A stretch of DNA of 64,000 nucleotides. Origin: Alphaproteobacteria bacterium (lineage in GTDB: Bacteria; Planctomycetota; Phycisphaerae; UBA1845). Position 1 is the first letter of the stretch; each line of letters begins with the position of its first letter. Below are positions 19,777 to 23,007 of this stretch, one piece after another. The notes beneath the pieces are model-generated. The model was not told the DNA's origin and ran no database searches. It saw only the letters and a program-made list of their open reading frames with translations. The stretch spans positions 186,001-250,000 of the forward strand of contig JANQQE010000011.1 of NCBI GenBank assembly GCA_028285105.1, in the 5' to 3' direction. Position numbers and translations under genes: made by a program.

Positions 19777-19887
19777 GTAATTAGTAATTGAAAGAATCGG
19801 AATCGTTTAGAGCGCAAGTTTGATTGCGCGGACCGATTTCGATTCTGTTTATTGGCTCGGTTGTCGGGCATTCAGAAACGGATCGAT

Positions 19888-21138
19888 ATGTCGCAGCGTC
19901 GTGTAGTCGTCAGCGGATTGGGAGTTGTTACCAGCATCGGCATGGACGTGGATACGTTCTGGTCGAATCTGCTGGACGGAAAGAGCGGTGTTCGTGATAT
20001 CACGATCTTCGACGCATCTCCGTTTGAAGTTCGCATTGGCGGCGAGTGCCGAGACTATCGCGAAGAGGATCACTTTGATCGCAAGTCGGCGAAGCGAATC
20101 GATCGTTTTGCACAGTTGGCGATCGTTGCCGCCCGAGAGGCTGCCAAGTCAGCTGGTTTCGATCCCAAGGCATATTCAGGCGACCCACGTCGATTGGGTA
20201 TTATTCTCGGATCGGGCATCGGCGGATTGCTTGAGTTCGAGCAGCAGCATCTGCGTTTGGTCAACAAAGGACCAGACCGTATCTCTGCATTCACAATTCC
20301 AAAATTGATGATCAATGCGGCTTCGGGCAACGTTGCGATTGAGCAGAATCTTCAAGGCATCAGCACGACGGTTGGCACCGCATGCGCGTCCGCAGGACAC
20401 GCGATGAAAGATGCATACAGCGCAATCCATCATAATGAATGCGATTTGGTATTCACCGGCGGTTCTGAAGCAGCCTTGACCCCGCTGGGTCTGGGTGCAT
20501 TTGCCGCCATGAAGGCCTTGAGTACCCGCAATGACGATCCCACGCGCGCGAGTCGTCCGTTCGATCGCGACCGCGACGGTTTCATTCTCGGCGAAGGGGC
20601 CGGACTTCTGGTTTTCGAAGAACTTGAGCACGCCAAAGCCCGCGGCGCGACGATTCACGCGGAAGTCCTCGGATTTGGGGCAACCTCCGACGCAACGCAC
20701 ATCACCCAGCCACTAGAAAGCGGCGAGGGGGCAGCCGTGGCGATGGAGCAAGCGCTTCGACAAGCAGGTCTCAACGTTGACGATATCAATTACATCAACG
20801 CCCACGGGACCAGTACCCCGCTTGGCGATTTGGCTGAAACAACGGCCATCAAGCGTACCTTCGGTGCACAGGCGAAAAGCGTCGCCATCAGCAGCACCAA
20901 GAGTTCAATAGGTCACCTTTTGGGCAGCAGCGGTGGCGTCGAAACCATTACCACAATTTTGGCGATGAAGAATTCAACGCTCCCCCCCACGCTGAATCTT
21001 GAAATTCCGAGCGAGGGCTGCGATCTGGACTATGTGCCCAATACGCCTCGTGACCAGCGGATCAACTACGCCATGAGCAATTCGTTCGGTTTTGGTGGGC
21101 ACAATTCATCGATTCTGCTTGGTCAATATCAGCCGTAG
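19888..21138 (+). CDS. fabF: 3-oxoacyl-ACP synthase II
   Basis: The 416-residue elongating ketosynthase has its nucleophile Cys166 in GTACASAGHAM and the two histidines in NAHGTSTPLGD and SSIGHLLGSSG, giving the Cys-His-His triad expected of FabF/FabB. It extends acyl-ACP with malonyl-ACP. An upstream TTG start would add 12 residues; MSQRRVVVSGLG matches the family start. It ends the fatty-acid operon. Confidence 0.95.
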   Translation: MSQRRVVVSGLGVVTSIGMDVDTFWSNLLDGKSGVRDITIFDASPFEVRIGGECRDYREEDHFDRKSAKRIDRFAQLAIVAAREAAKSAGFDPKAYSGDPRRLGIILGSGIGGLLEFEQQHLRLVNKGPDRISAFTIPKLMINAASGNVAIEQNLQGISTTVGTACASAGHAMKDAYSAIHHNECDLVFTGGSEAALTPLGLGAFAAMKALSTRNDDPTRASRPFDRDRDGFILGEGAGLLVFEELEHAKARGATIHAEVLGFGATSDATHITQPLESGEGAAVAMEQALRQAGLNVDDINYINAHGTSTPLGDLAETTAIKRTFGAQAKSVAISSTKSSIGHLLGSSGGVETITTILAMKNSTLPPTLNLEIPSEGCDLDYVPNTPRDQRINYAMSNSFGFGGHNSSILLGQYQP

Positions 21139-21361
21139 GTTGCACACCTCGCAAGCTCGATCCACTCTCACTGAACACCTGCTGACAGAACGGAAGCGGT
21201 TATTGAAGATGCCGTATCGTTCCGGCTTGGAATTCACCCGTTGCTGCATCCTCAAGGCGGATTTACCCTCCGCCGATAAACCTAACACAGATTGCTGAAT
21301 ACTGGCAGTTGCTTGGATTCACTTCGCATTGGTTGCGCTGCGCGCCGGGTTGGGATTCGAA

Positions 21362-21748
21362 ATGTCGATTCTCGAACAAGACGAAATCGATTCACTGATG
21401 GCCTCTTCATCGGATCTGATGGATGAGCCGGCATCGCCACCCACGTCTGCGCCCGCACCTGTTCAGATCGACTTGTCCAAACTCAGCCCGGAGATGCGAA
21501 AGCTGTTTCATTTGCAGGTACCGATCATTGTTCATCTCGCTGAGCGAACCATGCCCATGCGCGACATTCTCGAAATCGGAGCTGGTTCGATTATCGAATT
21601 CTCCAGATCCAGCGATGCCGAACTCGATCTCGTCGTCGGCAACCGGCCGGTCGGCAAAGGGCAAGCTGTCAAGGTGGGCGAGAACTTCGGACTGCGCATC
21701 ACCGAGATTGGCCCGATCGAAGAACGCATCCGCGCAATGGGCACCTGA
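21362..21748 (+). CDS. fliN: FliN-like flagellar motor switch protein with a FliM-like N-terminal peptide
   Basis: The 128-residue protein has a C-terminal SPOA/FliN domain (about residues 45-120) with VHLAERTMPMRDILEIGAGSI, GKGQAVKVGENFGLRIT and a final EERI segment. Its first 12 residues, MSILEQDEIDSL, closely resemble the CheY-phosphate-binding peptide at the start of FliM (and FliY), then a Pro/Ala/Ser-rich linker follows. It should form part of the cytoplasmic rotor ring controlling motor switching. It stands alone between fabF and cca with no other flagellar gene in the window. Confidence 0.85.
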   Translation: MSILEQDEIDSLMASSSDLMDEPASPPTSAPAPVQIDLSKLSPEMRKLFHLQVPIIVHLAERTMPMRDILEIGAGSIIEFSRSSDAELDLVVGNRPVGKGQAVKVGENFGLRITEIGPIEERIRAMGT

Positions 21749-21768: not shown

Positions 21769-23007
21769 CTATTTCAAATCAGATTCAATCAACGCAATCG
21801 CGATCGCTTCAGCTTCCGCAACCGATGCAATCGTTTCGTTAAGCTGCGCGCGGTAAACGACATCCAGGACCTTGCGATAGATCGGTCCTTGCGGGATGTT
21901 GCGATCAAGCAAAAATGCGCCATCGAGAAGCGGTGGGGGAGCGGCGCATTGGGTCGTTATTCCACTTGCGCGGTGTCGAATCGAATCGATTTCAACACGC
22001 CCTCTTGCCTGAACGAGAGTGCAGATGTCGTCGAAGTGCGTCGATGCCAACATGTTCTTGATGTCAGCCAACTCCAGGTCTTGATCGCTTTCGATACGGT
22101 CACACCATTCGAGCAACTGGCAAACGGAATCCGTTTCTTCGTTGCTGCAACGCAGCGCACGGCTGGCCTTTTTCGCGAGAATCGCTTTGCCCATGAATAA
22201 AGGGGAAAGAATCGCTCCGAACCCCAAGGAAACCGTCGTGCATTCGGGCAAATTTCTGAGGATATTCCCAACGGCGGCTTGCTGGTCTTCTGTCCATACG
22301 ACATTGCCGATGATGTGATTACAAAGCTCTGACTCGCAAAGCATCGCCCACGCATTCGCCCGACTTGTGGAATTCAACATCAAAACCAACTCTGCTCGAA
22401 TGCGCTCGGGACTCACGGAAGCAACCTGTTCCGCGTTCTCCTGGATAGCCGCAAACGTCTCTGGGGAAATTTCAAAATTAAGCCTCGCTGCGAACCGCAC
22501 TGCCCGCAAGAGTCGAAGATGGTCTTCGGCGAACCGCTTGGACGGATCTCCAATGCAACGAATGATGCGTTTATTCAGATCGGCTTGGCCATTGACGTAA
22601 TCGACGAGATGGTCTTCGACCGGATCGAAAAACATGCCATTGATCGTAAAATCGCGCCGTTGGGCGTCGTGTTCGGCATCGGTGAATGTTACTGTGTCGG
22701 GGCGTCGGCCGTCACGATATTCGCCGTCGGATCGAAATGTTGCGACCTCAATCTCCTGCCTTCGGTGCGACACCAGCACAACGCCGAATTGCGCTCCGAC
22801 TTTTTTCGTCCGCTTGAAGATTTTGCACACATCGTCGGGCGTAGCAGACGTTGCGACATCGTAGTCCTTGGGCGTCTTGCCCAGGAGTTGATCGCGAACG
22901 CACCCGCCAGCAAATAGGGCCTGATGACCCTGGTCCTTCAAGACGACGATGATCGCCTTGGCAGCTTCATACGCAGTATTCGGATTGGCGTCTCTCTCGC
23001 GATTCAT
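21769..23007 (-). CDS. cca: tRNA nucleotidyltransferase / polyA-polymerase-family protein
   Basis: The 412-residue protein has the class II nucleotidyltransferase motif GGCVRDQLLG (34-43) with catalytic DYD at 48-50, then RRDFTINGMFFDP and the ADHLRLLRAVRFAARL-type neck motif (AEDHLRLLRAVRF). It probably adds CCA to tRNA 3' ends; a polyA-polymerase or a split C- or A-adding role cannot be excluded by eye. Its ATG overlaps the stop codon of rsmD (ATGA), showing translational coupling. It converges on fliN with a 20-base gap. Confidence 0.88.
   Translation of the reverse strand: MNRERDANPNTAYEAAKAIIVVLKDQGHQALFAGGCVRDQLLGKTPKDYDVATSATPDDVCKIFKRTKKVGAQFGVVLVSHRRQEIEVATFRSDGEYRDGRRPDTVTFTDAEHDAQRRDFTINGMFFDPVEDHLVDYVNGQADLNKRIIRCIGDPSKRFAEDHLRLLRAVRFAARLNFEISPETFAAIQENAEQVASVSPERIRAELVLMLNSTSRANAWAMLCESELCNHIIGNVVWTEDQQAAVGNILRNLPECTTVSLGFGAILSPLFMGKAILAKKASRALRCSNEETDSVCQLLEWCDRIESDQDLELADIKNMLASTHFDDICTLVQARGRVEIDSIRHRASGITTQCAAPPPLLDGAFLLDRNIPQGPIYRKVLDVVYRAQLNETIASVAEAEAIAIALIESDLK

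Follow-up and report, generated by a model that had tools for sequence, protein, structure and literature searches.

What is a lone SPOA protein with a chemotaxis-type docking peptide at its N-terminus doing beside a fab gene, remote from any flagellar cluster? This is the question raised by the window (the whole stretch of 64,000 nucleotides analysed here), in which a sequence-only reading had seen a FliN that itself docks CheY, or else a redistribution of roles among the switch proteins of this lineage. The gene lies at 21362-21748 on the forward strand, and we annotate it, from its open reading frame, its PF01052 match, a tree of SPOA domains and its distribution relative to FliG, as an orphan SPOA protein and putative third switch protein, FliY-like yet lacking a CheC domain. 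It opens with an ATG at 21362, closes with a TGA at 21746-21748 and encodes 128 amino acids with the N-terminus MSILEQDEIDSLM. An alternative TTG start exists 11 codons upstream, but the methionine stands at the same place in all five sequences of the genus (the window and four others) and the frames 5' of it are unrelated among them, so that we take the ATG to be the start.

The assembly scanned comprises 36 contigs and 4.81 Mb. Close matches to the gene include Phycisphaerales bacterium UBA1845 and Phycisphaerae isolate OFTM112, which marks the source as an uncultured planctomycete of the Phycisphaerae, near UBA1845. Orthologues were collected, among the matches listed, from 41 of 60 genomes, namely the window's own and 40 others of the order; third SPOA matches of other genomes were left out of this set, and one sequence (L059) was excluded from the orphan alignment A1, which thus holds 40 of the 41. 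Upstream lies fabF (19852-21138, forward strand; assigned by tblastn), which is found within the fetched stretch at 33 of the 41 orthologous loci, and downstream lies a PcnB-like gene (21769-23007, reverse strand; named by reading its sequence), which is found at 19 of the 41, contig ends cutting some of the remainder. We regard both neighbours as conserved synteny only, and fabF as having no part in the function of the orphan.

The protein is built of three parts. A CheY-docking-type peptide (residues 1-13, MSILEQDEIDSLM; 21362-21400, forward strand) is defined by its motif in orthologues, by codon constraint and by a predicted helix, and contains EQDEIDSLM, of the EIDAL type, at residues 5-13. 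It is followed by a variable linker (residues 14-47; 21401-21502, forward strand), marked by low column identity over residues 14-36 and by differences within the genus that mostly change the amino acid over residues 17-36, and then by the SPOA domain (residues 48-116; 21503-21709, forward strand), which is supported by PF01052 (E 1e-19), by profile matches in the PDB and by Foldseek. Only about 35 residues separate peptide and SPOA domain, and a Pfam scan up to E 1 returned no family besides PF01052, the CheC, CheX and FliM domains, including the FliM middle domain PF02154, all being absent. AlphaFold2 predicted a helix over residues 6-20 at modest confidence (pLDDT about 68) and gave pLDDT values of 84-97 from residue 31 onward; the best Foldseek matches of the model were the Thermotoga maritima FliN structures 1yab and 1o6a (E about 0.002).

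The peptide is conserved well beyond the genus. With the motif Q..[IVL][DNE][AESDTK][ALMVIT][LMFVI] it was found in 33 of the 41 orphan orthologues, the Q always falling at residue 3-6, where shuffling of residues gives a mean of 0.10, and it is present in all five genus sequences; a stricter form of the motif occurs once among the 61 non-overlapping open reading frames of at least 60 amino acids in the window. At the codon level, among codons that differ between the five sequences of the genus, the fraction that alters the amino acid is 0.38 over residues 1-16, 0.90 over the linker (17-36) and 0.32 over residues 37-128, which argues that peptide and SPOA domain are constrained and the linker is not. 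The sequence-only reading was thus well founded in what it had seen, namely a CheY-docking-type peptide on a lone SPOA protein, joined by a flexible linker and without a CheC domain, and the absence of the motif from close orthologues, which it had named as a point that would count against it, did not occur.

Outside the order the picture changes. At all 19 loci (18 in the same class and one, L091, in another) the orthologue lacks the motif. fabF is nonetheless found in the short flank of eight of these 19 loci, and since it thus occurs at motif-less loci outside the order as well as at 33 of 41 within it, the position beside fabF seems to be older than the peptide. As far as the sequences tell, the peptide seems to have been acquired at or close to the root of this order, or else to have been lost elsewhere. 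Within the order, six of the eight orphans without the motif sit in one nine-row clade of the SPOA tree. Compensation of this loss by FliN copies was considered and dropped, as the FliN proteins read in four of these six genomes bear 0, 2, 1 and 0 copies of the peptide and show no pattern.

The other two SPOA proteins of the genome, FliM and FliN, bear on the claim of redistributed roles. The FliM gene, which the sequence-only reading had proposed to look for, lies outside the main flagellar cluster and encodes a protein of about 353 residues with the PF02154 middle domain (1.7e-66) and LDQNEVDALL retained near its N-terminus. The FliM peptide is kept in all 41 genomes, 38 times by the strict motif and three times as the near-variants LDPNEVNALL or LDPSEVDALL, and a handover of CheY docking from FliM was therefore rejected. 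The operon FliN, inside the flagellar cluster (L001:1471-2142, reverse strand; 223 residues), bears three further copies, QNEIDALM, QADIDAAM and QSDIDALM. Read from these sequences, the pattern is one of multiplication of peptides and not of redistribution.

Such tandem arrays are, in our view, the most interesting part of the finding. Across 49 FliN genes of the order (loci L004-L032 and L231-L250 plus the window genome's own, counted with complete 5' ends only, one of 50, L022, being left out as cut by a contig end), the number of copies is 0 in 13, 1 in 10, 2 in 14, 3 in 11 and 5 in one, the last being five tandem EIDALL-type copies on the FliN of L014. This adds up to 76 copies, spread over 36 of the 49 genes at a median spacing of 33.5 residues, where shuffles lead one to expect 0.21. 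Seven FliN proteins from the rest of the class (L263-L268 and L270) show no repeat by the strict motif. Counted over the switch proteins, docking-type peptides number one in genome G014 (FliM 1, FliN 0, orphan 0), five in the window genome (FliM 1, FliN 3, orphan 1) and at least six in G026 (FliM 1, FliN 5, its orphan lying outside the count).

Whether the orphan is itself a FliN was addressed with a tree of 165 SPOA rows over 88 columns, which included neither SctQ nor a named FliY and in which FliM is represented by 25 rows, thinning having removed roughly two thirds of the FliM sequences of the order, that of the window genome among them. All 61 orphan-type rows, together with nine SPOA domains of longer planctomycete proteins, form one branch (100/100 in a tree whose bootstrap is unsettled), apart from FliN, the genome's own FliN included, and from FliM (100/99). 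Against the FliN model TIGR02480 the orphan scores 55.7 bits, under the cut-off of 84.05, and the operon FliN 106.1, and on these grounds the name FliN given by the sequence-only reading does not hold. In phmmer searches the orphan places Helicobacter pylori FliY (2.9e-9) above Salmonella FliN (6.7e-7) and the operon FliN gives the reverse order; in both cases H. pylori FliY outranks H. pylori FliN, and the best NCBIfam score of the operon FliN is likewise to a FliY model. We therefore describe the orphan, on sequence grounds, as a FliY-like paralogue without a CheC domain and not a FliN copy, "not a FliN copy" being the firmer half of that description.

The nine longer proteins in this branch are FliY-like to varying degrees, and five of them were scanned for domains (L102, L093, L095, L099 and L096). 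L102 matches the NCBIfam FliY model over residues 166-416, below cut-off, and PF13690 (CheX) just under cut-off; L093 has a weaker CheX match than L102, L095 and L099 have no CheX- or CheC-type match by Pfam, and L096 has only SPOA by NCBIfam. By Foldseek the middle domain of L102 resembles T. maritima FliY (4hyn), CheC and CheX, a comparison that rests on a weak model (mean pLDDT 47.8) of which only the middle domain, with blocks at 57-82, was used. As a separate observation, L102 (1-1254, forward strand; from another class) carries, by eye, at least four EIDAL-type repeats in addition to its SPOA and CheC/CheX-like domains, and since the contig start cuts the gene, more repeats are possible.

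Compared with known systems, the orphan shares an N-terminal peptide and a C-terminal SPOA domain with FliY of Bacillus subtilis and T. maritima, which has an EIDAL peptide, a CheC-like phosphatase domain and an SPOA domain in that order, and its SPOA domain groups with the longer FliY-like planctomycete proteins. Unlike FliY as so described, it lacks the CheC-like domain, coexists with separate FliN and FliM proteins and is a lone gene by fabF. It resembles FliN of Escherichia coli and Salmonella in its single SPOA domain and similar length but differs in being separate from the genome's cluster FliN, in the grouping of its SPOA domain and in its N-terminal peptide. With FliM it has in common the EIDAL-type peptide and, in this lineage, an upstream sigma28-type site, although it lacks the FliM middle domain. 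The closest parallel in composition is found in Campylobacter, Helicobacter and Leptospira, where FliN and FliY coexist (PMC6946799, excerpt) and a motor thus has two SPOA paralogues besides FliM; here, however, the second paralogue has no CheC domain and in many genomes a sigma28-type site, and FliN bears zero to five tandem peptides. According to the excerpt of the same study (mBio 2020), which gives a tree of 12 bacteria, full or degenerate EIDAL motifs occur sporadically in FliN and FliY, the two are not discrete clades, and second FliN-like paralogues are proposed to be independent in several lineages. In kind, then, a FliN/FliY-type protein with a CheY-type peptide is known, such motifs being already in print; what the orphan contributes is a further lineage in which FliN/FliY-type paralogues vary in their CheC domain and peptide.

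The link to the flagellum comes first from distribution. In 99 genomes of the class, each at least 95% complete, profile searches with the orphan alignment A1 and with FliG were read with cut-offs set after gaps had been seen (A1 below 1e-20 for the orphan type; FliG below 1e-41 for the main type and 1e-15 to 1e-29 for a diverged type) and tables counted by hand; this sample replaced an earlier, biased test in which genomes picked for an absent SPOA match were then examined for flagellar genes. Wherever FliG is of the main type an orphan-type match was found (59 of 59 genomes); there was none in the 21 genomes whose FliG is diverged, where A1 matches were weaker and FliN-like or missing, and none in the 19 without FliG, which gave no A1 match at all. 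As the two sets of 59 genomes coincide, the orphan goes with one flagellar motor type, with or without the peptide, and judged by its occurrence it is an orphan by position only.

Several observations made along the way deserve mention in their own right. A second type of flagellar motor is perhaps present in the 21 genomes whose FliG is diverged and which have no orphan-type protein (for example G162, G191, G226, G264 and G297). G230 encodes an FlhA-type protein (C18:33695-35722, an 886-residue frame) and has CheW matches but no FliG or SPOA protein, perhaps pointing to a non-flagellar export system. In G125, 99% complete in one contig, an FlhA-type gene with many stop codons (G125:C1:618126-620040) and a damaged second SPOA match suggest decaying flagellar genes, and G027 has a second full-length FlhA-family gene (G027:C1:1604043-1606049) beside one at C1:2726943-2728883. 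A relative of the Phycisphaerae orphan also occurs in a record titled Candidatus Kuenenia stuttgartiensis (L188, CAMDMA010000003.1), an assembly that is possibly mislabelled. A culturable flagellate of the class, strain ZRK32 (L176), likewise has a relative of the gene. Finally, G011 (locus L052; apparently the same as CP070691.1, L152), which lies outside the 99-genome sample and is one contig scored 78% complete, has FliG, CheX and the orphan; FlhA, FliM, FliN and CheW were looked for there and none was detected, so that it may be an incomplete assembly or a flagellum being lost. A reading of the orphan as a non-flagellar relic, drawn from this genome, was dropped because FliG was found in it.

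A second link is a putative promoter. Upstream of the orphan stands a sigma28 (FliA)-type promoter-like site, recognised as a sequence pattern, TCAAG-N15-GCCGATAA (21252-21279, forward strand), whose -10 element at 21272-21279 is the sole occurrence of GCCGATAA in the window (1.79 expected by chance); the two-part pattern TCAAGN{14,16}NCCGATA also occurs once in the window, against 0.06 expected. The general sigma28 consensus is TAAA-N15-CCGATAT (PMC3720852, excerpt), and a first scan with it, in which mismatches were allowed and mononucleotide shuffles served as reference, placed a site upstream of 20 of 41 orphans, where 0.35 were expected, and of 29 of 40 fliM genes, where 0.54 were. A fitted pattern, drawn up after the results of the first scan were known, found a site before 24 of 41 orphans against none of 108 upstream regions of neighbouring genes; it found none before the other 17 orphans of the order and none before the 19 orthologues outside it. 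No sigma54 site was seen before the orphan by eye. Over the whole genome TCAAGN{14,16}KCCGATAA has five sites, one before the orphan and one before fliM, and the reversed control pattern has none. Because three of the five sites precede neither gene, the pattern alone is not diagnostic. One of these three has no open reading frame within 420 nt; the other two precede a glycosyltransferase-like (L286) and a histidine-kinase-like (L287) frame, named by eye, and these are possible unlinked members of a FliA regulon. A gene for a FliA-family sigma factor lies near flhA, and by the site upstream of it the orphan would count as a candidate member of the FliA (sigma28) regulon.

Taken together, we consider it probable, though by no means secure, that the orphan is a third SPOA subunit of the C ring, FliY-like and CheC-less, that offers an additional docking site for CheY-P. 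CheY binds the EIDAL motif at the N-terminus of FliM in other bacteria (PMC6946799, excerpt), and in two-step binding the FliM N-terminus is the high-affinity site or tether (PMC9126983, excerpt). The genome encodes FliM, FliN, FliG, FlhA and the FliA-family sigma factor, along with CheA, CheW, CheR, CheD, CheC/CheX-type proteins and a single-domain CheY-like regulator near cheA. The SPOA domain would anchor the orphan in the rim of the C ring, while the N-terminal helix, carried by some 35 residues of flexible linker, would capture CheY-P; together with the single FliM peptide and the tandem FliN peptides (three here), this helix could make CheY-P locally more concentrated there. Lacking CheC, the orphan would hold CheY-P without hydrolysis, which would fall to the stand-alone CheC-/CheX-type proteins, and motor switching would be affected. 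Against this proposal we count that eight of 41 orthologues within the order and all 19 outside it have the protein but not the strict peptide, although outside the order the gene is no less firmly tied to flagella; docking need not, for this reason, be the core role of the orphan, and a structural role in addition is favoured by its following the motor type at loci without the peptide too. We also count the absence of the promoter-like site before 17 of 41 orphans and before those 19 orthologues, the fact that the peptide belongs to a class that binds FlhG in other bacteria, a tree of 88 columns, and the case of G011.

FlhG is also the chief rival as partner of the peptide. It binds the N-terminus of FliM in monotrichous bacteria and FliY in B. 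subtilis (PMC12826062, excerpt), and in this genome FlhF (TIGR03499, over cut-off) lies beside flhA and is adjoined by a MinD-like ATPase in the position of FlhG. Instead of or besides docking CheY-P, the orphan might act in assembly, recruiting FlhG together with FliM/FliN to the nascent C ring and so helping to set the number or place of flagella. We think this unlikely, as the sigma28-type site suggests late expression, after C-ring assembly, and as the tandem copies on FliN would better fit capture of an abundant small signalling protein than a single assembly checkpoint.

To about the same degree improbable, in our judgement, is that the SPOA domain is what matters and the peptide is secondary. 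The orphan would then belong to the structure of the motor or to its export platform, as a subunit comparable to the second FliN-type protein of Campylobacter, with the task of stabilising the rim or of feeding the FliH-FliI complex. Two SPOA paralogues of Campylobacter jejuni indeed have split roles (PMC6946799, excerpt), and the strict peptide is missing in eight of 41 orthologues within the order and in 19 of 19 outside it, all of which keep the SPOA domain, yet every one of the 59 genomes that have the main type of FliG also has the gene. However, the peptide region is within the genus nearly as constrained as the SPOA part, and across order-level divergence the peptide is kept and the linker is not.

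Use of the SPOA domain outside the flagellum, in fatty-acid or RNA metabolism beside the fab genes or as the SctQ of a type III injectisome, is very improbable. The place by fabF is kept at 33 of 41 loci, and as a single sequence the orphan scores 53.8 bits against TIGR02551 (SctQ), close to its 55.7 against TIGR02480 (FliN), both under their cut-offs. As a profile, however, its best matches in the PDB are flagellar, namely T. maritima FliN 1o6a (1.6e-19), H. pylori FliY (6.7e-16) and Salmonella FliN (7e-16), ahead of YscQ-C (7.7e-8), H. pylori FliN (2.9e-6, weaker than YscQ-C) and HrcQ2 (2.2e-3). A grouping with SctQ, which the sequence-only reading had named as a point against FliN, was thus not found, and an SctQ identity was rejected on these profile matches, the tree having no SctQ row. 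Besides, each of the 59 genomes that have the main FliG type has the orphan and none of the 40 others of the class does, and the orphan shares with fliM a promoter-like site that is missing before its neighbours. That an acidic N-terminus came to resemble the peptide by chance, a view for which nothing but the shortness of the peptide speaks, is next to negligible in likelihood, having already been refuted by the motif counts (33 of 41 orthologues against 0.10 by shuffling) and running counter to the codon-level constraint.

The preferred reading of the orphan as a third, CheY-P-docking subunit can be carried further to the whole switch. In this order the switch might be a multivalent collector of CheY-P, to which FliM contributes one peptide, each FliN a tandem array of up to five and the CheC-less FliY-like paralogue one more, and avidity on disordered arms, not FliM alone, would set how the motor reads CheY-P; we offer this tentatively, as a possibility of which we are less than half persuaded. 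In the literature, judged by titles, abstract openings and partial texts with few subscription papers, we did not find planctomycete FliN peptides or tandem EIDAL arrays, a motor with the peptide on each of its three switch proteins, or a CheC-less FliY-like gene under a sigma28-type site.

The locus illustrates that distribution, together with a sigma28-type site, can identify a flagellar gene remote from any flagellar cluster. The model motor is built of FliM-FliN3 protomers (PMC6946799, excerpt), and if the collector is real, FliN proteins with three repeats would bring the docking sites of a protomer from one to about ten. Motors that range from one to at least six peptides per set of switch proteins would offer a direct test of tethering valency against the gain or bias of the switch, and hence bear on the long-standing question of how binding of CheY-P at many sites of the rotor gives rise to an ultrasensitive switch.
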